This document shows positions 21,860-57,810 of a stretch of 64,000 nucleotides of DNA, in pieces. The stretch lies in the NCBI RefSeq assembly GCF_963678975.1, contig NC_089275.1, forward strand, positions 24,489,977 through 24,553,976, read 5' to 3'. Both the position numbers and the translations under genes were made by a program. The DNA comes from Dysidea avara (Eukaryota; Porifera; Demospongiae; Dictyoceratida; Dysideidae). How positions within the stretch are numbered: position 1 is the first letter of the stretch; each line of letters starts with the position of its first letter. Below the pieces are notes generated by a model. That model was not told the DNA's origin. It ran no database searches and was given only the letters and a program-made list of their open reading frames with translations.

Positions 21860-24800
21860 ATGATGTCAGTGGCCCATACATTGACGAATACTCTTAAAGA
21901 GTTTGAAGGCTATTTTACACCCCATGTGATCAGGAATGTGAAAGAAATAGGCAGAGACGAAGTCGAAAGAAAATACCGCGAGGGTGCAGACGCCATTATT
22001 GTTGATCTAGATTGGGAAGAGCAACGGTATGTGGGTAAAAAGCTCCACTCGATATTCTTTAAACCCAACACGCAATTGGAAGGGATGAAATGTATGCTTG
22101 CTAAGTTTTGTAAGGAGATAAAACTCGTAAGTGAACTTGATCATAAAAATGTCGTCACTTTTGTTGGGGTCTATTACATTACTGCACCCTCCAGTGAAAA
22201 TTCTTTTTTGCTACCAGTATTGGTCATGGAGAAAATGCCATTTAGTTTGACCAAGTACATTGACACATTCCGGCATATCCCTGAAACTGACATCATTAAT
22301 ATTTTATGCGATGTAGCTAGAGGCTTAATCTATTTACATGATGACAAACGTGTCGTACATGGTGATTTGTCTTCAAACAACATTCTTCTCACTTCAAGTT
22401 TTTGTGCCAAAATAGCTGATTTTGGATCAGCCCAAGTGGTCAATCAATCACGTGTTTCAGCTACTCCATTGGTAATACAACCTGGTACTCCTGATTTTAT
22501 GCCACCAGAGGCATTAATAGATCCTCCATGTTATACAATATCAGTAGATGTGTTCTCATTTGGTTGTGTTATTATCCATATGACCACTTGTAAATGGCCA
22601 ACTCCTACAGTCATAGTATCAGAAGCTAGTGAACTAGAACGACGACAGGAGTTTATCCTTTTGATGAGAAATTCTCATTTTTTGCTATCAATTGTAAAGA
22701 AATGTCTTGACATTAAAGAGAAGAGACCTTCATGTAGAGATCTCTTGCTGTGTTTGTCAGAAATAAGGGCAGCACCAAAAGAGTAAGTACCTAAATTACG
22801 CATGTTACGTGAAGTGATTATGTCATTAAGAAACATATAGTAGCTATAGGGATCACGTAGACTTTCTACCAAGATTGCAGTATCTGTCAGTATTACAGTA
22901 CTAGTGTGCTAGTTGGCATGTATTGTCCAAGAATTGAATTTGGAAAGTAGTTTTTTTGTTTGTTTGTTTTTTGTTTCTGATGTTCAAGCCTTCTTGTATT
23001 CATACAATGGCTTATTTACTTAGCATCTCATATGTACTCTAGTTTCCTGTTTTGCTGAATTTAACCTTAGTGTTAGGAAAATTTCAGCATAGAAAATTTT
23101 CATCTATTAAAATTTTGACGCAGCATATTTTTGTCGCTAGCATAATCAACAAAAAATTTTGGACGGAACAACTATACATTAATAGCTATTTGTATGTGCA
23201 AATTATTTGTATATATATATATATATATAGTTAAGAATAATTCGTCGTTTTAATTTTCGTTGATACAGCCAGCGATGAAAAATTTTTGACGACAAATTTT
23301 TCCTGATTTACGGTAGTCTATACATTTATACTATTTGGTGACCATTCTAGCTTTCACCTCAGATTTTGCCACCCTATCATGATTTTTGTCTAACAAGCCC
23401 GGCAAAACTACTTCCTTTCACAATGTCACTGTTGTTAAGTTTATTGTTAATAAAGGTACATCTGCTTGGGTGCAGCGTGTAAAGGGACTTGTATGTAGTG
23501 TTACATTCTGCAGTCATCTGTTAATGTTTGTTTCAATGTCATGACAAGTGTCTTAGTTAGCTATATTATACACCTATAGTCTGAAAAGGGCCTTGACTTT
23601 GGTCTTTAGCTGTACTCATTCTTCACAACTCCAACCACATGAGTGATGATTGAATCTAGTGATGTGGCTTTAACCAAGTCTGACCACAATCACTGAACTT
23701 GTCAAAGGTACTTGTTTTCTACTTCACGTAAAGCATGGGGCCACTGCTTCACTGAAGCAGCTACTCACCTGAAATGAGTTGGTAAACCATAGTTTCTGTA
23801 ATGAGCGATTGCAACTTGCTTGGCTGACTTGCCTGCATTAAAGGACTTTTTGATAAACAGTTCTGAAATTTAAAGGGCTTCACAGTGCTACTAACGAGTG
23901 CTCAGGTGAACGCAAACCAACTATGTATATCAAGAGTTCGTATTATGAACTCTTGTATTATATATGGCAAACAATGCTTTATTGCCCACTCTTTGTGGAC
24001 AACAAAGCACAGTTGCCCACGTGCTCTAGTGCGGGATAAAAGTAGCCCGCGGCGCTCATGCCAGTATGACTAATCACCCAAGTCGGTGAAGGCTGATACC
24101 CCTCGCTGCGCTGAGTGGTCAATCACCCCAGCCAACACTAGTTCTACTACTGGATTGCTTTTATAGACTTACCTAAATGTTTCGATGATGGGTGGGAGAA
24201 GGTAACATTGCTGTTACGTTTGTTAATATAAACAGACAAGTCCTGGAGATATCATGGAAATACTTCACCATGTGTCACAATAGAATCGATTGTGGATTAC
24301 TACCCAAACCTGCCATAATTCGCGATGAACTTCTATTATGCCGCCAAACTATGGTGAACTACGTGTGAGTTACTTTGTTAAACTAGTTTGTGTGCATTCA
24401 GGCTGCTAATAGTTCATGCAACGCATGTTAATTACAAGTCCTAGTGTATGGTGAAGCTACACGGCTAGAAACTTCCATAAATCATTTAAAGCATTGCCTT
24501 GCTCATGCTCTATGAAAAATAAAGCATTTGGCGCTTGGCCTCTTACTTTATTTTTCATATAGCACTCACGGCAATGCTTTAACATGTACATATAAAATGG
24601 CCTGTACACCTTCATCAGCTAGTGGACATGGATATCAGGCTGTATATGACTGAAGTAGGAATTAAATGTCCACTGTTAATAGGTGAGACTGTATTGTTGT
24701 TTTGTGGCTTTTCGTTTCTGTAATTCCTGTAATTTTCTTTTACTTATTTTGTTGCTAAGGTAATGCTCTATGGTAGCTAAAAGCTGTCAATTTTATCCTT

Positions 24801-26961
24801 TATGTACTATAGAAGAGACATGGATGAGGATAATTTGGACCAAGCATATAAAATGATTAGAAAAATTGGCTTGAAAGAAACTATGCAATATTTGTTCAAC
24901 AATGCACTGGAATCTTCTCCACTCATTCCTATTCAAAAAGATTTGCATGGCATTGAGCCTGGTGACCATCTGGTTTACAAGACTATGAGTGGATGGAAAA
25001 TACATTTTTATGTGGTTGCAAATCTAGGCAATGGTAAAATCAAGGTGATTGGTGCCTTTCTTGAAGGAAATAATGATCCGTTTATTGAAGAAAAGCTCGT
25101 ATTTGATCCAAACAAAGCTGAGCAGTTGAAAATTGACATTAAAATCCTTTATAAAGCTCAAATTATATTAGGACATGGCAACATTAGCAAGAAGCTATAC
25201 AAGGCTGTGGCTAATCTCAATGAAGAACAAGAGCGTTTGGAACATTTCAAAATGCATAGGAATAAATATAGTGTTCTGTACAACAATTCTGAGCATTTTG
25301 TGATGTTTGTGAAAACAGGAATAGCCAAATGCCAAATGAGCAAAGAAATTGTGAACATCTTTAAAAAGTTTCTGTTTGTACAAGCCATTGAAAGTAACAA
25401 CTTGGATACATTCCAGTCCATGATTAAAAGCTATAAATGGATGAGTGCAACTGCCAATTCACAATATGATGACTTGTTAGCAAATGAAGTACGGAAAAAT
25501 GCTCTGTTGAGTGCTACGAGAGAAGTAATGGTACAGGTCTCAAAAGAAGTTTTAGAGGAGACTAGCAAGGCTGCCACACTCCAGTCAACTGTAAATGCTG
25601 CTAAAACCATAATTGCAGGGCAAGTGTCTAAAGAATTATTAGAAGAGAGTGGAAAAGCAGTGACATCACATGCATCAAAGAATGCTGCTTCTGTTGTTGC
25701 ACAAGTCACAAAAGAAGCAATAAATCAAGGAGCAACATCTACAACTTCAGAGACTATCAAAAATGCAGCAGCAACTGCAGTTCAGAACAATCTTAAAATG
25801 TCTGTTGTTGCTGGAGTAGCCTTTGAAAGTGCTATGTATTCTTTTAAAATGAGCAAAGCTGTCTATAAGCATATGAAAGGCCAGATGGATGGAGAAGAAT
25901 TTATTGGCTATACTGTAGAACAAACAGCCACATCTAGTGGTAGTGCAGCAGGTGGAATTAGCGGGTCAGTAGCAGGAGCTGCAGCTGGGGCTGCATTAGG
26001 GTCTGTTGTTCCTGTACTGGGCACTGCAGTAGGTGGTCTATTAGGAGGATTGATTGGTGGAATAGGAGGAGGTGTGGGGGGTAGTCTTCTTGGGAAAGAA
26101 GCTGGCAGAGTAGTCAATTCCATGCGAGAAAGCAAAGATTGGCAATTAGAAATTAAGAACATTGGTGACATTGCTATTTGCCCAAATAACCAACTTATTG
26201 TTGTGGATCAGTCAGTATCACAAGCATTTGTGTTTGACGGTGGATTATCATTGATAAAAGTACTTACATTTAAAGGAGATGGTACAATAACTCAACCATC
26301 ATGTGTTGCAGTGTGTGATGTAATTGCCATCAGCGACAGGAAGAAACATGTTGTAAAAATCTTTTCGTTTGAAGGAACTCACCTATCAACGATAGGATCA
26401 AAAGTAGGGAGCAAAATAGGCCAGTTTGACTATCCCTTGGGATTATCCTTTAATAGCAAAAGAATACTGTATGTAGTAGACTTTTACAACTGTAGAGTGC
26501 AGGCTTTTGATACTAACAAGTGCAATGCGTTCTGTGGTATGGTTGGTTCTGAAGGATCCAATCCTGGACAGTATCAGCACCCAGAGTACATTGCTATAGA
26601 CAACAGTGATCATGTATATGTGACTGACTACAGCAGTAACTGCATTAACATGTACAGTGGAGTTGATCATATTTTCCTATGTAAAATTGGCTGTAACAGA
26701 CCATGCACCATAGCTTTCAGTCCAGACAATCATTTGATAGTTGGTGATTACGAGAATAATTGTCTCTGTATGTTTGGTCCACCACAGAAGCAACGCTACT
26801 CTCGTGAGATGACCAGCATATTTGGAAATAAAGGTGAAGACAGAGGAGAATTTAATGAAATATGTGGTTTAGCTGTTAATAACCAAGGCACTATCTATAT
26901 AGCAGACAGTAAAAATGATCGTCTACAAATAATAGGAACTAGCATGTGGAGAAAACTATAA
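21860..26961 (+). CDS. protein kinase - LRAT-like - glycine zipper - NHL propeller fusion
   Basis: Two exons, 21860-22782 (donor GTAAGT) and 24813-26961; the split codon GA|A keeps frame, giving about 1023 residues. Residues 20-305: protein kinase domain with degenerate Gly loop, Lys60/61, Glu86, catalytic HGDLSSNN (Asp169), DFG 187-189, PPEA 215-218 and closing Arg289. Residues about 350-490: LRAT/NlpC-P60-like fold with PGDHLVYK, His372 in WKIHFYV and NNSEHFVMF, where the family's Cys is Ser467. Residues about 530-640: Ala-rich helices with a duplicated QVSKExLEE motif. Residues about 682-740: GxxxG-rich hydrophobic glycine zipper, probably membrane-inserting. Residues about 760-1020: NHL repeats (LYVVDFYNCRVQAF, VYVTDYSSNCINMY, IYIADSKNDRLQII). 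No signal peptide is seen. The role is unknown; the architecture suggests a sensor-effector kinase. Without splicing, exon 1 ends right after the kinase domain with TAA, so intron retention would give a kinase-only form. Confidence 0.85.
22783..24812 (+). other. intron of the kinase fusion gene, repeat-filled
   Basis: About 2 kb from donor GTAAGT to acceptor CTATAG. It holds an AT-rich segment with inverted AAAATTT/GACG motifs (23060-23325), a palindrome CAAGAGTTCGTATTATGAAC (about 23930-23955), a hairpin at 24487-24582 and a fragment of the palindromic family near 24655. No exon candidate recognised inside. Confidence 0.7.
24485..24583. mobile_element. short hairpin MITE
   Basis: TAAAGCATTGCCTTGCTCAT and CTATGAAAAATAAAG on the left pair with CTTTATTTTTCATATAG and CACGGCAATGCTTTA on the right, around a loop of about 20 bp. 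It lies in the intron of the kinase fusion gene. Confidence 0.6.
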
Positions 26962-37810: not shown

Positions 37811-40800
37811 ATGGCTACTGACGTGAGTTTTACGATTCGGCAGGTGGAGCCAGCAAGAGCAGACGGCACCATCGAAACAAGTGAAACGTTACCAACTACA
37901 GAAGCAGCTGAACCACGTGGAGAAGAGGGTGTAAGCAGGCGTGCCCCGAGGCGTGCCACCAGTAAGAGAAAGAAGAAGAAGGAAGAAACTAAAGAAAAGT
38001 CAAGGAAACCGCCGGGTTAGTTATAGAAATTAATTCACTGGTGTTATAGTCTATATCAACAAATGCAGTTTTTCACTTTTCGAGGTTCTAGGGTCACAAC
38101 ACTTTGCCAGTTACACGAGTAGTAGTCACGTCCCGAGTCACGTACTCCACTCAGCCAGTTGATACATTTGCACCGGGTTCAACAAGTTTGATCGTTGCTT
38201 TGGTTGGTTGCTTGATTTCATCTTTGTTAGTCTTGATTCTTGATCAACAGTATTTTAAAAGCCTTGTGTTGCTAAAAGAGCTTACAAAGCTGATTGCTGC
38301 CTTTTCAATTAAGGAATGCCACAAGGTCACTGTTTGGTTACATTTTATACTGTGTTTAATTTTCAACAACCTTGGATTCTTGGTTTACCATGCCCTTAAA
38401 AAAAACTCTTTACAGAACTACAACTATTATTAAAAATTGAACTGATTGATCATGATCAAGGTCATTCAATGTTTGCTACATATGCAAATATGTAAAATTG
38501 ATTAGCTACAAAGTTTATCGCTCAACTCTCATCAATACTGAAATCTGTTATCCTGTAGTGAAAACATACATTAGTGTTGCTAGACAACAACATCCATGGT
38601 GTAGCGTAATATTCTTTGTTACTGTATCTGTAACGATCGACCTAGTTTGAATTACTTTCTAACATTTGGCTGGACTGAAGCTGCATGATTCTAAAATGGT
38701 GCTGGTAAGTACAGTAGTTCACATAATATATCTTTGGTCCTAGCTAGTGGTAGTCCCTAGTCTCATTCAGATGTTCTTTTGCTTGGCTTGGCTGTAATAA
38801 TGGTATTAGAAAGAAATATTAAACCAAATCACCATGCAAAAGTGACTTAGTTGATGTACTAAAAATCAGCTGTGAGAGTTTCCAGCAGGGAAGGTTGGAC
38901 ATGCTGTAAATATTATTGAACTTATTTAATTGCATCATTTTATTTAGCATTTCACGTGACCCTCAATAGTTACACTACTAGGCAAATGATGAGTTTGATC
39001 AGACTTGATACAAATCACTCTTCACATAAGCTTTAAGGAAATGTACTTTAAAGCGCATAAGGTTTTGGGTGAAAATGCCAAACCCCTCTTTCATGCATAT
39101 ATAACTACATCAGACTGATTATTGTGTATTCATAAAAAGAAATCACTGTTTATATATCGAGACTACTGTTTACTAGCTCCTCTCCATAAAAAGGTCTTAA
39201 TATATTTTACTTCCTCTGGATGCGGGTGGGGTGGGACAAGACTATATATACAATAAGAAATGCTCACAAGAAAAGTGTAGTCATCATACTACTTGTTGAA
39301 AGCAACAGATTGTACAAAAACGATTCTATTGATGATCATTATTGTTACTTGTTAATGTGAAAGTGACTGCCAATCATCATCATCATCACTGTGAGTCTAA
39401 TTTCTCCATAATGGCAATGTTATTCCAATCATGTACCATTCAAAAACTAATTTATGTATATTGGTATAAGCAAGAGTCATTATATTATGTACTCTTGGTA
39501 TAAGCCCTACCTACTTTTTGTAGGAATTATATTTCAGTACTTAGTTGTGCAATTGCCACTGCAATATTATTGACATTGCAAGTGCATGTGGGCTTGTACC
39601 CGCATTCCTACAGGCTGTACCAACACATACAGTACTGTTATGTAGGTTAAAGGTCTTATAGAAATGTTGGAATACAGTGTATTCTTCATGATGACTGTAT
39701 CCTTCCTAGTAAAACTTAATGGGTGTGATTGAGAGACTGCTATAGCATGTATGATCTTTGTCATGTCATGCATCAAGAGTTCAACTCTTGGCTTTATTGA
39801 TTTTTTTTCCATCAGGTTGATGTGTACTCTAATTGATCACTGTGTATACCCTATACTAGTTGTATAGTTACAAAGTGCTCTTGGTTGCTTGGTGTGTTAC
39901 TGCATTTGTAGGTTTGCCAACTAAGCACAAATAGTATAAGAATGGAATTTCAATGTGCATGCATATGAGTTCTAGTGTTATTATATGTGTTCTGTTTTAC
40001 ATGTACATTGTCTAGGTAACAAATGGCTGCAACAGAAAATCCCTGCTTGCCGGCCAGTCTGGATGGTGAAGCACGTGTTTGTCGTCTTTGTTACTGTGGG
40101 CATTATATTCATTGCTTTGGGAATTGGTTTCCTTGTGACCACTGCTCGAGTAAGTGCCAATTGTGTGTACAGAGTATAGCTACAGTACAATACATACATA
40201 GGGGATCTAAGTATCTTTGTACTATAGTTAGCACACTGACCATTGCTATAGGTTATTTGGTAGCTCTAGTATGAGCTACTGATCGAGCCTTAAAGAATAT
40301 TTCTTTTGCAATACATACATAAAGTATGTCATAAAAATTACCTCATTAGTCATATTCTTTGTTTTACAGTTAAAGAATTTCACTTATGAGTATACAAATT
40401 GTAGACCAGTTAATCCTCCTGAAGACGTCAACAATAGTTCTACTTGTGAGCAATACTTATACCAGCAGGCTAGATTACCTAACGTTGAACGAAGAGATGA
40501 AACCACTTGTGTGTGTATGGTAAACTTCACAATAGATGAAGACATGGATACTCCTGTATTCATGTACTACTCACTCCACAACTACTTTCAGAATCACAGA
40601 AGGTGCGTTGTGTGTGTGTGCATGCATATGTGCACAAATACATGTGTACTCCTTTTCTTTATTACTCTAGCTATATGTGCAACAATAAAATTCTGCATGG
40701 TTATGCCATAGGTTTGTCAATTCCTGGAGTGGTGATCAGCTACGAGGTGAAGATTTAGAGGATGAAGGTACTTGTGAACCTTTAGACCACAACGACAGTG

Positions 40801-43654
40801 ATGTTACATTCCTACCCTGTGGAGTAATTGCCAACAGTTTCTTTAATGGTAAGACTGTAGAGTACTGAATATGTTATAGATTTACAGTACACTGGGTACT
40901 GTTCATAAAATCATGTGTTCTGTGATGAGCTGTTGATCAATACTTTGTATTTGAATATACATGTACTACAGTCTTTCACAGTATGTCCTACAGTCTGCCT
41001 TAAATATTTAACTTGTAAATATTTGATCTCCGTTTGGGAAAGATTGAGTCATAGACATAGTATACAAGGCATCCATTCCTTCTCATGCATGTCACTTGTT
41101 ATAGACATGCTTTGTGTGCATACCTTGGACATGACTAAAACACGGAATAAACCAGAAATCTCACTGGGAGAAAATTCTTTTTACTATACTAGCTTACTGT
41201 ATAGCTGCTTGAAAACAACGTTGTATGCAACAGTTGCCATGAAGTACTGTAACCTCTGAACAATCTCAGAGTGTGCTTGCGGCCCTTGAGAGCAAGTGCG
41301 TATATACCAGGCTACACATATACAGTATGGTATGTGATTATAACTGGTCTGGAATTAGTTTTTAGTTTTTTTTTACACTATTCAACTGTTAGCATTATGG
41401 CTTTAAACAAGCTAATATACATGGTTGAAGGGTTGGATTTGTGTTCAGCTTAATAGCTTTGGGGCCTGCTCTACACTTCTGACGTAGTGCATCACGCGTT
41501 CATTGTACGTACTGTGGTATGCTAAAAGGCACCTGTTGGGCTGAAGCAACGTTGAATAGTGAAAAAATCGAGCCTATAGCTCTAGCAGTTATCGACTTAC
41601 GCTTGTCTGAAGGCATTAGTAAGTCAGTCAGGCAATAGAGATTTTTTTTTTTTAAATTTCGTAGCAGCTTATTGTGTTTTAGGTCGTACCTAACCAATAG
41701 TCTCTACTAATCAATCCTGCCAAGGTGTCATGAAGGTGTTGTGAGACTGCCATTTTTTTGTGAGAAAGTGCAAACCTTTGTGATCCCTTATATACAGTTA
41801 CTATCATACAAAGGGTTGGCGTGTTTCCTTATATTACCAAATAGTTACTTACATGGCTAGTTTTGGCCTTACCATTTAGTGTCAGGGTAAATCCTAGGTA
41901 TCATTTTATTTAATCCTTGTTACAGTACATCACAAGTAGAATGATGTGAATTACATAGCCATAGGATGTACGCTTCAAAAAGTTGTAGTGCTTTAGATCC
42001 AGTTTTCTGGACTATGTTAATATTAATTTGATCCTATAGCTTTTGTAAGCAGTGTATATGTACAATATGCATCAACTCTCTACTTCCAACACCCACCTTC
42101 GATCCAGTTTCTTTGTAATTTGTGTACCTAGTGCAGACTAGTCTAAATGAAGCTGCAGAGGGCTGTATATTGCACTAGCTTATTCTTCACTGAACTTGTT
42201 GATACATGTTGCATTAAATACTGTAGACTATTCTACTTGTACCAAAGTGTGTATGGGTACATTTATTTTGTGTTGTTTACTGTATATAGACACTTTGCAG
42301 TTGATCAATCGTGATACATCTGTTGATATCATTGAAGATCGTACTGATATATCGTGGGAGAGTGATCGGGATACTCGCTTTCAAAATGCTGATGGAAATA
42401 TGACTATTCCACCTACAAGAGGTACTACCCAGCCTAAAAACTGGCAATTTGATATTTCGGAACTGAATAACAGTTTGGAGAATGAGGACTTCATTGTTTG
42501 GTTCAGAGTATCTGCCTTTCCAAATTTCATAAAGTTGTACAGTCGTCTTTATGTAATGGGCGGTGATACATTACCTGCAGGAAACTACACTCTTCAAGTG
42601 GATTACAGTATCCTTTTTGTTATGCTGAGACAAGTCTTCATCTGTGTGTTATATATTACTTCTTTAACTTGTTGTCAGGATACCCAGTAACTAGGTTTGA
42701 AGGTACTAAATACTTGGTACTCTCAGAGAAGTCATGGCTGGGTGGTAAAAACAACTTTTTGGGGATTGCATATATCATAGTTGGCAGTCTCTCCATCGTT
42801 GGTGCTGTGGTGCTGATAGTCATTCGCTTGAAGTTTTCAAGATGGTAAGAAATGCTGTTTTGCTTAGTTATCCAAATTTTTGTGTACATGCATTATGCTT
42901 ATGTGTCAGCTGTCATGTTCTGTTAACCCTTAAACCCGCAGCTGTTTTATAAAACATAAGCACTGAAAACGCATAATCCAGTAAACTGAATCACATGCAT
43001 CCCTTGTAAAACTAAAGTCCATAATACAGAAACCAATAAAGCTATCTAAAAACAGTAAACACCGTCTTACTCACCGTTAAATTTTGGCTTAAGTAGTCCC
43101 ATACTTTGTCACTTTCATCCAACCCAGAGCTTCCCGTTTCACTTTGAAAGAGCAATACCTCTGTCTTCCTTCTTCACATAACAATGTACAAATGGCCATA
43201 ACTTGGCTGTACTTCATCGTATCGACTTGTTCTTGGTATCACGTTGCTCTTCATGTGATGGCGATTCAGTTGATATATAGATATCACATGATTAAGTCAT
43301 TGTTGAATGAGCACAATGACGATACGATACGAAAGGACACCAAATTATTCAATGCATCTTAGCGGATGAGTTCCTTGTTGTATGTTGAAAGTTTATACAC
43401 AGTTAGATAGTTTAATGCCCATTAATAAATCTTTTTTCTAAGCGATTTAAACTCATTCATAACATGTAACACCTTCACACCTGAGCCACCCAGGCTACAT
43501 TTGCAATGTAGCCCAGTTGGCGATTTGCCTGGGCTACCAAAATCAATGTGTGTGTGGGGACCAATTAATACTTGCGTGATTAAACTGAACACTTGTTTCT
43601 TTTTCCTACTTTAGGAAAGAGGATGACCGTGATTACATGCACAGAAAACACTGA
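37811..43654 (+). CDS. TMEM30A: CDC50/TMEM30 family, P4-ATPase flippase beta subunit
   Basis: Chaperone and accessory subunit of P4-ATPase phospholipid flippases in ER, Golgi and plasma membrane. Exons: 37811-38015, 40016-40149, 40370-40602, 40712-40848, 42290-42607, 42679-42844, 43615-43654; phases join, giving 410 residues. The N-terminal cytosolic part is Arg/Lys-rich and longer than usual. Exon 2: [12 protein letters not shown], then the first membrane helix ([17 protein letters not shown]). The ectodomain has [42 protein letters not shown] and [12 protein letters not shown] with paired Cys, typical of the family. The second helix follows [14 protein letters not shown]. The short tail ends [12 protein letters not shown]. 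The gene is divergent from PEX13; intron 1 contains a possible alternative terminal exon (38111-38433). Confidence 0.96.
38111..38433 (+). CDS. candidate alternative terminal exon in TMEM30A intron 1
   Basis: After the acceptor-like TTTGCCAG, an open frame of 106 residues plus TAA continues exactly in the phase left by TMEM30A exon 1 (G|TT). It encodes a Ser/Thr-rich lead-in, a strong hydrophobic segment ([20 protein letters not shown]) and a second hydrophobic stretch ([17 protein letters not shown]). Spliced to exon 1 it would give a distinct two-helix membrane protein of about 174 residues. I recognise no family. It may instead be a separate unannotated gene's exon or chance; the polypyrimidine tract is poor. 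Confidence 0.35.
41500..41790 (+). repeat. interspersed repeat family with (TCAG)n core, copy 3
   Basis: Contains AAGGCACCTGTTGGGCTGAA, AGCTCTAGCAGTTATCGACT, CTGAAGGCATTAGTAAGTCA and AGGTCGTACCTAACCAATAG in the same order as the 6350 copy. It lies in a TMEM30A intron. Confidence 0.55.
43475..43545. repeat. GGCTACATTTGnnATGTAGCC palindrome
   Basis: CCCAGGCTACATTTGCAATG runs into TAGCCCAGTTGGCGATTTGC and CTGGGCTAC. A close relative lies at 60285-60362 (CTGGCTACATTTGTGATGTA, then GGGCTACATCTAAATGTAGC). Short self-complementary repeat; it lies in the last TMEM30A intron. Confidence 0.5.
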
Positions 43655-50535: not shown

Positions 50536-52837
50536 ATGGAGCAAATGAGGGACAGAGATAAGAGTGGTGAGTCCACGATCAATTTATGCACCTATCAATG
50601 TTAAGCCCCACCCCCCCCAGTACGGGGAGGGTGGGGATATAGTGGGGATTTGATCAAGTGGAAAGTCAAATTCCCCTACCTGGGGGTGAATTATCAGGTC
50701 AAATCCCCACATAGTCCCACCCTATGAGGTGGGGATAGGAAGGGGATTTGACAACCAACGTGTTGTAAAAACAGAAGCCACAGTGATAAAGTACACGAAG
50801 TGCTGCAGTTTTATCACGCAGTGTTCTCTCGCGCTTCACTTATAAAACTACTGTAAAGGATCTATGCTACTATAGAGCGCTTGTTCAAATTCCCCACCCC
50901 TGGGGGCAAAATTTAAGTTCAAATCCCCTCCTAACGCCCCACATAGCCCGTACTGGGGGGGGTGGGGCTTGACATTGATAGGTGCATTAGTAGTTCTTCC
51001 TGCTGAGCTACTGCTTCACCTATGTTCATTTTTGGCTGCTGGTGGCATGCGAGATCTGGTTAAAATGCGTTATGTTTCAAGAACGTTACGTAGTGTTTGC
51101 GAGACGCCGTCATTGTGGAGGGACTTTACCTGGTCACAGTTCGATAGTACTGAAGAACGCTGTGTGAGGAATGTGTTGAAATCGTTTGGGGAGTATATTA
51201 AAAGGTTGTCATTTCCTGATCACGTGATGCCATCGAAATTGGCATCAATGTTAAAGTATTGTAGAAATCTTGTACAACTCAGTATTCCAACAAGCAGACT
51301 GAGTGCTGATCAGTTGGGAAAGGCTATAGAGTCGATGAGGTACTTAGAGAAGCTAGATGTTCCATGGAATGGTGACATTAATCCATTACTTTTGATTAGT
51401 GCTAAGCTGAAAGAGCTTACAATTAGAGAAAAGGTAAAAAAACCAACAAGTATTGCTCCAATTTCTTATTCCTTCTTTGATTCATTGGATTCTTGGATGG
51501 ATAAGTGGGTAAAAGAAGAATTTCATCCACAAACATTGAACATCGTTAGCAATGCACATATTTTGCCAGCAACACTAATGCAGCATTGGTTTCATTCGAA
51601 TCCTAGTTCACTACCAGGTCTCACTGGCTGCCTCAAAGTGTATCGCAGACTCAGAGTTCCGATGGATCTGTTTCCTGCATTACCAGAATTTCAGTTACAG
51701 TTTGGTCAGTCATGTACTCTTCCGTATGTGAAAGCCAGCAAGTGTGGTTTATTAGGATTGGAAAGGGACCTTTTATTATTGACCAATTGTACTGACAGTG
51801 ACAATGTACTACTACACAGGGCAAAAATGGTTATGTCAAGTAACATCAATGAAGGCGAACACTTGAAAAATGACATGACCAGTCTTACTTTTGTAACCCA
51901 TTTTGATGCTTCCCTTTGTACATTGCTTCATTCTGGTCATCTTGAACAACTAGCTATGATGTGTCCTAATTTACACCAGTTAAACCTAAAGGGTAATATT
52001 CATTGTTTAAAAAGCTTACAAGGACTTCGTGTGATTAATAATTCTTGTAGTAAACTGATAGGATTAAATCTTTTAGGAATACAAGTTAAGGATGTTGAGA
52101 GCCGTGTTAGGTTATGGGAAATATTGGTTGATCTGAGGCTGCTCTATCTGGCCATTGAATTGTGTGTTTTGTTACCTTATGGAGAAGATGACCAAACTAA
52201 GCAAATGATAATTGGTTTTTATCAGAATTGTTCAAAATTAAAAGCATTAGAATCATATCGTGGAGATCACTGTGCCAAATGTAGAAGTTTTGTCAGTGGA
52301 CAATCACTACTACTGTCTAATTTTCCATCAATTACACATTGCTTAGCAGCTGATATTCACTACAATGCAGTGCAAGACATTGTCAGCAGTTGTAAAAAAC
52401 TCAAATACTTTAGATATACCCATGTTAATTTATCATGTACGTTAGCACAAAATTGTACATTAGAACAGTTTTGCATTGGATCAAATGATAGAGGTATTCC
52501 TGACAGTTTCATGGACACAGTATCTGCTCATGGTGGACTAGTACATGTAGTTTTACGTTGTCTTTCAGTGACCACTAAAGGTGTAACAGCTCTTATTGCA
52601 AATTCTCCAAAGCTCATGACATGCCATATTTATGCACATGTTATCTCATCTGAAGGTGTTCAATTCAACCATAGAGGTTTCTTTTCAGCACTAAAGAAAA
52701 AATTTCCAAAGAGGAAACTGTTTTCTTGTGGGAGTTGTAATTTAACACAAGGAAGATCAATTTATCTTAAACATGATGCTCTCAATGATTTCTTGATGGA
52801 GGAGCACAATACAGATCTTGTTTCATTGTGGCCCTGA
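50536..52837 (+). CDS. F-box / leucine-rich repeat protein with MITE-derived intron
   Basis: Putative substrate receptor of an SCF ubiquitin ligase. Proposed exons: 50536-50566 (donor GTGAGT; in-frame ATG also at 50413) and 50991-52837 (acceptor CATTAG), about 625 residues. The F-box lies near the N-terminus: LPAELLLHLCSFL, MRYVSRTLRSVCETPSLW. The rest has irregular leucine-rich repeats (LVQLSIP, LEKLDVPW, LHQLNLKGN, LIGLNLLG, LKYFRYTHV). The second exon is one long uninterrupted frame, so the gene was probably intron-poor originally. The only intron is almost entirely a 400-bp MITE; without splicing the frame meets a stop six codons into the MITE. Excising the MITE and one TSD copy leaves the same frame open. 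Substrates are unknown. Confidence 0.82.
50587..50986. mobile_element. 400-bp Harbinger-like MITE, TTA target-site duplication
   Basis: The left 40 bp begin TGCACCTATCAATGT; the right end, reverse-complemented, is identical except for one T/C difference, running through a C8 tract to AGTACGGG. TTA occurs at 50584-50586 and 50987-50989, a 3-bp target-site duplication as in PIF/Harbinger (TWA). The interior has further inverted GC-rich boxes (GTGGGGAT / CCCCAC, AGGGGATTTGA). The element sits inside the coding sequence of the F-box gene. Confidence 0.82.
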
Positions 52838-55615: not shown

Positions 55616-57810
55616 TCAGCCACTTAAAGTCAGGAAGCCCGAGCTTCGCCTTTTCTTAGTTCTGGTAGCATCATCCAGTCTAGTCTTAAAAACTGCCTCA
55701 ATAAAGGCACCACCATCTTCAGACAGTTTGAAGGTGTTATCACCTTCATCATCGCCGCCAGGGTTGTCATTGTCAGACGAGTCTGAGTCATACCCAGATC
55801 GTTGCCTCTTACGAGGATTGCCACCTGTTTCGTTACCATTCTCTGGTAGAGTGGCATGACCGGACTTGTTGGTCAGCAGGTTGTTTCCACCAGTGGCCCT
55901 GCTGCTTTTTAGTGCCGTCCCATTGGCCTGAAGTGTCTTCACACTAGTCAGCAGTTCTTGAAAAAGTCCTTGAGTAATTGCATCAGTCTCAGTCATGTTG
56001 TCGGTCAGTCCACAGAGAAATAACTTGCTGTCAAAGCCAAAGAAAAAGCCGGTCTAGTGGCCCCCACCATTCCCAAGGAGTTGATGCTGTCGCTCAGAAG
56101 ACTCACAAACTCTGGCTGGAGGCAACTGCTCCACTGACAGCAATTATTGAGAAAGTGGATGCAGGTAATATAGACCAGGCTGAGGCCCTCCAGGGAATAA
56201 GAGCTGCCTTGGTATTGCTTCCCAACATCATGCCATTCAACATCAACATCATGCCATTCATAAAGATGAGGACTTTGCTACCACAGCCCCCTTTCTGTTT
56301 GGACTAAATTTTGGCGAGATTGCTAAAGAAGGGCAGAAAGGCACAACAGGAGGCAATGAAATTCCTAAAATCACCAACAATCTCAGCAAGGGAACTTGCA
56401 ATGTTCATAGGGAAAGCTGTAGCAACCTCCAGAGCTGTCAAACAAGCTCCACTACATTACAGAGCTCTTCAGAGGTTACTAAACTCAGTAATCCCGAGAA
56501 CAACTCCCTGGGGTACTCAGACAAGTGTGATTATCAGATAACTCTGATCAGCGAGATGATCAGGGATCTGAATTGGTGGTCAACTCTAGACAGACAGATA
56601 GACAATGGAAGCACCAATCTGTCTTTCACAACCTGTGATAATCATAGAATCAGATGCCTCACACCAGGTGAGGTGTGGCAACGCAGGGGCAGATCCAGAG
56701 TTTGGAAAGGGGGGATGCACTTAGCTTAAAAGTTGAAGAGCAAAAAAAAAAAAAAGATCACAGCAATAATGGCTGCCCTTTACCAAATGTATTTACTATA
56801 AAGTATATAAAAATCCTTATTCATAGCTTCATAGTTAAGCTACACTACCTCATGAACACTGTGACTGCTTTATTAGAGTGACTGCTCTATTAGAGTATCT
56901 CAATCTTGTATGCAATTTTTTTTTGAAAGGGATGAAGGAAGTGGGGGAGGAGCTGTGTCTCCCTACCTGGATCCGCCACTGGGACACCAGTACAGGGGGG
57001 ATCAATACAGGAAGCAACCCAGCACATCAACTTCCTGGAGCTTTCAGCTGCCTTTCTGGCCCTCAAAATGTTTACCACAAACCAAATGGGCATGGTTCTT
57101 CTGACAACACCTCTGCAGTGAGTTAAATTACAACCATAAGGGTGGTACACACTCAGTTCAACTGAGCAACTTACATGTAGCTCTGGAAATATGGGAATGC
57201 TGTCTCCCGAGACAGATATCACTGCAAGTAGAGCACCTACCTGGCATTCTCAACAAGGTGGCAGATGCAGAATCCAGGGTAATGAAGGACAGGTGAGACT
57301 GGATGATCAATCCGTCTGTATTCCAACAAATTCAGCAATTAATGGGTCCTCTCCAAATAGATATATTTGTGTCCCCCGCTTCTACAGCTGGAGGCCAGAC
57401 CCAGGCGAGGGATTATGCCAATCCCCCATGGTGCCTGATTTCTAGTTGCCTGAGTCAGATAAAGAGACAACAAGCCAGAGTAGTTCTGGTGACACCACTG
57501 TGGCCATATCAACCATGGTTTCCTCTGCTTCTCAAAATGCCGGAGGACTATCTCCACAAACTTCCAAGCATCCCAGATCTACTCTTGAACCCAACCAACC
57601 AGGAGTTCATAATGAAACAGGGAGTGCCAAAACTGGTTGCATGGCCCACCTCAGGGAATCTTTTGCTTCATGAGGAATTTCTACACAGGCTTCAGACCTG
57701 TTGCTCTCCTCATGGAGAGACAAAACCAATTAACTACATCTTCTACAGGTCCAGCAATGGGATTTCTATTCCTTTGCTCACACCAACTAGCCCACTTTGC
57801 AAACTGTGAG
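55616..57810 (+). mobile_element. degenerate DIRS-type retrotransposon, rearranged
   Basis: Remnant of a tyrosine-recombinase retrotransposon. The 5' gag-like part lies inverted on the minus strand (55996-55616: start MTETDAIT, Asp/Ser-rich, ending in a TRTKKRR patch). The next gag segment is on plus from about 55990 (THKLWLEATAPLTAIIEKVD). Near 56300 the frame jumps to the region just after a reverse transcriptase (ARELAMFIGKAVATSRAVKQ, APLHYRALQRLLNSVIP), so the RT core is deleted. RNase H-like pieces follow (IESDASHQ, HINFLELSAAFLALK, LPGILNKVADAESR), then YANPPWCLISSCLSQIKRQQ. There are several frameshifts and stops, so it is dead. Another element is nested at 56684-56981. No terminal repeats were identified. 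Confidence 0.8.
56684..56981. mobile_element. TIR element nested in the DIRS remnant
   Basis: The left end CAGGGGCAGATCCAGAGT resembles the reverse complement of the right end (CAGTGGCGGATCCAGGTAGG). The inside contains an A14 run and ATTAGAGTGACTGCTCTATT. Taking the element out leaves the DIRS frame continuous across TGT GGC AAC G|GG ACA CCA, with no target-site duplication. Similar ends occur at 31360-31645. Confidence 0.6.

Follow-up and report, generated by a model that had tools for sequence, protein, structure and literature searches.

Transposons that are spliced as new introns are an already known kind of element. In maize, Ds and dSpm insertions into exons are spliced as introns, as has been shown on RNA. 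Introners, which are likewise spliced out as introns, have so far been reported from no more than two groups when animals and land plants are surveyed; their splice sites can be shared among the element, the target site duplication (TSD), and the host exon, with codons being added or removed (main text of PMC9860276). The words "sponge" and "Porifera" are absent from that main text, "sponge" as it occurs in the text of PMC10228655 and PMC12768974 is unrelated to introners, and our literature searches returned no report of introners or of MITE-born introns in sponges. For the sponge Dysidea avara, excerpts of PMC12909245 describe one chromosome-level assembly and name another, GCF_963678975.1. 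We analyzed a stretch of 64,000 nucleotides from the latter assembly, G000:C4:24489977-24553976 (referred to as the window, to which all positions refer), in which a MITE splits the 5' coding region of an F-box gene.

According to the initial annotation, this region contains a 400-bp element with 40-bp TIRs, flanked by a TTA duplication. Our analysis confirmed the element; its coordinates and those of the other features of the locus are provided in Table 1. The 40-bp cores of the two TIRs differ by 1 mismatch, imperfect similarity extends further inward, and a longer ungapped comparison gave arms of 71 bases with 80% identity that start 10 bases outside the element. At 400 bp, the MITE is too short for a transposase gene. 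The TIR pattern matched twice in the window, namely, at the element's own two ends, and did not match in any of 100 dinucleotide-preserving shuffles of the window. A chance repeat is ruled out by these shuffles together with the genome-wide relatives described below. An assembly error in the window is judged unlikely, since an error would hardly produce an intact element that has its own TSD together with an empty site that matches it. The recency of the insertion into the F-box coding exon is well supported by the near-identical copies elsewhere in the genome and by the intact TSD.

Table 1. Coordinates of the MITE, the candidate splicing signals, and the coding segments of the interrupted F-box gene (a slash marks the splice junction)
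Feature	Position	Strand	Remarks
5' coding segment, from the ATG through the base preceding the donor (MEQMRDRDKS + G)	50536..50566	+	N terminus similar in P0003 and P0007
Candidate 5' splice site, GTGAGT within host coding sequence	50567..50572	+	Score, 6.12
Left TTA target site duplication	50584..50586	+	
PIF/Harbinger-type MITE	50587..50986	+	400 bp exactly
Left TIR core, 40 bp	50587..50626	+	
Candidate branch point CTAAC	50931..50935	+	A lies 47 bases before AG50981; motif only
Right TIR core, 40 bp	50947..50986	-	
Candidate branch point TTGAC, in TIR	50969..50973	+	A lies 18 bases before AG50990; motif only
Candidate 3' splice site in right TIR, GATAG/GTGCA	50980..50981	+	Best-scoring in-frame acceptor; score, 0.35
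Right TTA target site duplication	50987..50989	+	
Acceptor AG named in the initial annotation (TTA + host G)	50989..50990	+	In frame, weak context; score, -7.88
3' coding segment of the F-box gene, through the stop codon	50990..52837	+	
Third in-frame AG	50992..50993	+	Weak context; score, -6.12
Competing out-of-frame AG inside the F-box	51006..51007	+	Better pyrimidine tract; score, 0.28

The search of the 550.8-Mb assembly (108 contigs) for this element returned 1,048 candidates, 40 of which were scored as full-length copies; the 39 copies other than that of the window were compared together with 2-kb flanks. Over the element, these copies show 92.9 to 99.8% identity, and all except one carry a 3-bp TSD (21 TTA, 16 TAA, and 1 TAG). 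Since the copies of the pairs L031/L033 and L035/L046 share flanks, there are at most 37 independent sites. Genome-wide, the exact TIR was counted 456 times in a TWA context, compared to zero occurrences in the control, and a scan of viral contigs for the TIR gave no match. Twenty further TIR ends (L069 to L088) were inspected and gave 16 pairable elements of 258 to 372 bp, all of them below 400 bp, and a 3-bp duplication is present in 15 of these. Several MITE subfamilies use one TIR, as blastn at 1e-10 did not align 13 of the 16 shorter elements with the 400-bp element. The same genome also contains transposases of the DDE_Tnp_4 family (PF13359), with 150 scored matches out of 1,111 candidates; the nearest transposase-TIR pair was 9.2 kb apart when 52 transposase places on contigs C1 to C3 were compared with 100 listed of the 456 TIR places. 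Taken together, TSD, TIR, and transposase supply fit a PIF/Harbinger-type MITE; no autonomous partner with the same TIR emerged from this comparison.

Once the element and one TTA are removed, a single open frame of 632 codons runs from the ATG at 50536 into the F-box, as initially claimed, and ends at the stop codon at 52835 to 52837. The F-box-like domain follows directly after the insertion site (match, 50993 to 51127; Pfam, E value of 3e-07). The uninterrupted protein P0001, from a 1,079,862-bp contig in an ENA record, is identical to this frame in 632 of 632 residues, from the ATG at 50536 to the frame end, and is shorter by exactly the element and one TTA at the insertion site. Also encoded on the 1,079,862-bp contig is P0004, which is identical in 634 of 634 residues to a paralogue (G000:C4:24479636-24481513) that lies some 61 kb upstream of the interrupted gene on contig C4. 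The F-box gene family is very large in D. avara: there were 674 first-look candidates, from which the 68 scored places used in all paralogue counts were taken (this paralogue and 66 others in addition to the interrupted gene), and 60 of these 68 have no internal stop. That P0001 represents a distant paralogue is ruled out, since the next best of the 68 scored matches after the interrupted gene is only 74% identical and since its contig also carries the 61-kb neighbor. The most probable origin of P0001 is this same locus in a different haplotype or in a different individual. The initial annotation had proposed a comparison with an allele lacking the MITE, and P0001 encodes such an uninterrupted version of what appears to be the same locus. 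As the contig of P0001 encodes the neighboring paralogue as well, the MITE insertion is most likely polymorphic at one locus.

Thirteen F-box loci (L089 to L101) were compared with the listed proteins. Six of these loci have a counterpart at 100% identity, five have one at 98.4 to 99.8%, and the remaining two (L091 and L092) have no close counterpart among the listed proteins. Such a combination is in keeping with either a second set of haplotypes or another individual. Less probably, the presence and absence of the element may reflect a difference between assemblies of one haplotype, given the identical neighboring paralogue and the many identical pairs, which place the other records close to the genome analyzed here. 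P0001 starts with MPPSTGRV, followed by ILHLIINMEQ. The stretch PPSTGRV corresponds to a one-frame translation of the left TIR region of the MITE (window positions 50613 to 50633); the order in the window differs, with the PPSTGRV stretch being downstream of ILHLIIN. Immediately ahead of its start codon, the P0001 gene thus appears to be preceded by a fragment of the MITE family on that contig; consequently, the empty site may not be pristine, and it may have arisen by precise excision.

The splice scores used here are based on vertebrate frequencies and on no more than four introns of the window, and they rank sites rather than prove them. The four reference introns are those of the CDC50 gene of the window, annotated against a human CDC50A sequence. 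Among the window's 3,928 GTs, the GTGAGT at 50567 ranks in the top 0.1% by this score, and it exceeds all four CDC50 donors. It had been described as a pre-existing host motif, which was borne out, as it sits in the codons for "GES" that are kept in the uninterrupted P0001. To estimate how often such a donor occurs by chance, TTA/TAA sites were examined in the window, using three coding sequences. None of 190 sites had, within 60 bp, a donor that scored at least 6.1 in the phase required for the TIR acceptor; within 100 bp, none of 188 did (2 of 188 in any phase), and these numbers were the same for a score of at least 5. Within 100 bp, an in-phase donor of at least 4 was found at 1 of 188 sites, and one of at least 3 was found at 6 of 188 (25 of 188 in any phase). 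The donor arrangement of the window copy is unusual.

Some other features of the window were recorded during this work. (i) An intron at 42608 to 42678 of the CDC50/TMEM30-like gene (exons at about 40027 to 42840) has GTATCCTTT as its donor and TTCTTTAAC near its acceptor, and by these motifs it resembles an intron of the U12 type. (ii) An uninterrupted frame of 726 codons with NHL repeats is found at 24781 to 26958. (iii) Long frames are present on both strands at 55619 to 57806; the two that were submitted to Pfam gave no match, and our impression is that they are retroelement remnants.

The initial annotation had suggested a search for other MITE copies in exons; among the full-length copies, no further exonic one with a good donor was detected. 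Copies were considered exonic when the frame with the site closed was open for at least 190 codons, which left out L045 (151 codons) and shorter ones. Three of the 40 full-length copies, that of the window included, lie in such frames, and 37 of the 39 others are outside them. The two additional ones, with sites numbered along the flipped loci, are L036 (379-codon frame, site at base 2003) and L044 (190-codon frame, site at base 2001). Neither has a donor scoring above 2 within 200 bases, and Pfam gave no match for either half of the L036 frame. The proportion of 3 of 40 is about the same as the random expectation, which is 5.3% for 1,500 random TTA/TAA sites in this one window. A family-wide introner trend is thus not supported, since of the three exonic copies only that of the window has a good in-phase donor.

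The acceptor named in the initial annotation, AG50990, is real and in frame, but its score is poor (77% of the 3,793 AGs of the window score better), and AG50981, nine bases upstream of it, is much better, being in the top 11% of window AGs and within the interval spanned by the CDC50 acceptors (-0.15 to 4.53). AG50993, like AG50990, scores below the majority of window AGs. Nor was AG50990 newly formed by the duplicated TTA and the next host G, as had been supposed: TTAG is already present in the empty site, and the acceptor would therefore be a pre-existing host AG whose upstream surroundings have changed. The claim that a splice here would be in frame stood in that AG50981, AG50990, and AG50993 all give the same frame (MEQMRDRDKSGALVVLPAELL, MEQMRDRDKSVVLPAELL, and MEQMRDRDKSVLPAELL), although AG50990 is not the best-scoring of them. 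All 39 copies have an AG five bases from the element end on the right side and, in reverse reading, all 39 have one on the left side as well. Under a simple scanning rule, the candidate TTGAC branch point would favor AG50990.

These data suggest the following sequence of events. A PIF/Harbinger-type MITE recently entered a TTA in the single coding exon of one member of the F-box family, and transcripts of the MITE allele would at least in part be rescued by splicing from the GTGAGT at 50567 to one of the three in-frame AGs, the likeliest being AG50981 inside the right TIR and the host TTAG at 50990. The predicted products would be MEQMRDRDKS-GAL-VVLPAELL or MEQMRDRDKS-VVLPAELL, with a net shortening by 4 or 7 residues ahead of the F-box. 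The host would provide the donor, and the transposon end would provide, or reposition, the acceptor. Our tentative reading is that the MITE allele may well be spliced in frame and is a candidate for a newborn intron. With greater reserve, we consider it possible that this would be a newborn spliceosomal intron, still polymorphic, from a MITE family with the TIR acceptor GATAG/GTG at both ends. If true, any copy of the family could, in either orientation, become an intron where a host GTRAGT lies upstream in phase. Of the conversion of a MITE into an intron that was initially put forward, the insertion into a coding exon is strongly supported, whereas the conversion is only a candidate and the acceptor originally named is weak.

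The intron reading is supported by the strong donor, the in-range TIR acceptor, and the three AGs in one frame. It is weakened by poor pyrimidine tracts, which precede all three in-frame AGs, by out-of-frame competitors, and by hairpins over the acceptors. In addition to the AG inside the F-box (Table 1), out-of-frame acceptors are found at 50821 (score, 0.55), 50875 (-0.1), and 50620 (4.6, at only 54 nt from the donor). The predicted TIR hairpin is very stable (z score of -12.5 against 100 shuffles) and pairs AG50981 as well as the branch point motifs of the TIR, and AG50990, AG50993, and AG51007 fall in a small predicted hairpin beside it. Some coincidence is also to be expected, because this is one insertion picked from a whole genome.

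On the basis of the sequence, a plain knock-out allele is an explanation nearly as good as intron birth. It is quite conceivable that the locus is an ordinary loss-of-function allele, in which the MITE is retained in the mRNA or mis-spliced and the loss is tolerated. Read without splicing, the frame from the ATG at 50536 gives MEQMRDRDKSGESTINLCTYQC and stops after 22 codons, 5 of which are element sequence, and the next in-frame Met, at 51047, is past the start of the F-box. The competing out-of-frame AGs and the hairpins that cover the acceptors argue in the same direction, and the loss of one gene would be tolerable given the large family and the existence of an intact version. A null allele leaves, on the other hand, the very strong in-phase donor just upstream and the three neighboring frame-keeping AGs to coincide; the frame downstream of the MITE is also still fully open, although a recent insertion would show no decay yet.

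Transcription or translation might instead start at or after the MITE, with the element being a new 5' untranslated region or a promoter piece and splicing being irrelevant. MITEs can carry promoters, and most of the protein would be retained if translation began at Met 51047, where the downstream frame has its first Met. We consider this unlikely, since there is no Met between the element and 51047, so that the front of the F-box would be lost, and since the N termini of P0003 (MEQSGESAVNLVALP) and P0007 (MEQEKERDTNGGFSINLVALP) directly resemble the interrupted N terminus upstream of the site.

The relatives of the gene were also inspected for a pre-existing intron of different content, as initially proposed, and none was seen. 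Among the 120 homologues listed out of 168 found, 101 have alignments that span LPAEL, and in 97 of these 101 (P0001 included) at least 6 upstream residues are in one frame with it. In the same genome, 50 of the 67 other scored matches start at least 5 residues before the site, and 4 of these 50 contain a stop. The alignments indicate that the insertion site was coding and without an intron. An old, fixed intron that was later filled or replaced by the MITE is highly improbable and was discarded, as no support for it was found among these data and as the intronless relatives, the perfect TSD, and the exact fit of the uninterrupted P0001 speak against it.

Intron gain is rarely caught in the act, and here both the insertion and uninterrupted versions of apparently the same locus exist. 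The exact sequence of the uninterrupted frame is available, as are public RNA-seq data of D. avara, so that it can be tested directly whether or not the transposon has become an intron. Of these data, ERR2560048, ERR2560049, ERR2560053, ERR2560055, and ERR2560056 are given in PMC12909245, and PRJEB61959 is given in PMC11229196. The locus can be compared to three known systems. (i) PIF/Harbinger MITEs, which are Tourist-like, resemble the window element in the 3-bp TTA/TAA duplication, the TIRs, the length of a few hundred base pairs, and the presence of DDE_Tnp_4 matches in the genome. (ii) The maize Ds and dSpm insertions were shown on RNA, whereas the present case is drawn from DNA; as in maize, a host donor just upstream and acceptors near the element end would remove most of the element. 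(iii) Introner families consist of many copies recognized as introns, whereas a single candidate is described here; as in those families, the window MITE is a nonautonomous element with TIRs and a TSD that lies in a coding exon, and relatives of the interrupted gene are intronless at that site (main text of PMC9860276).
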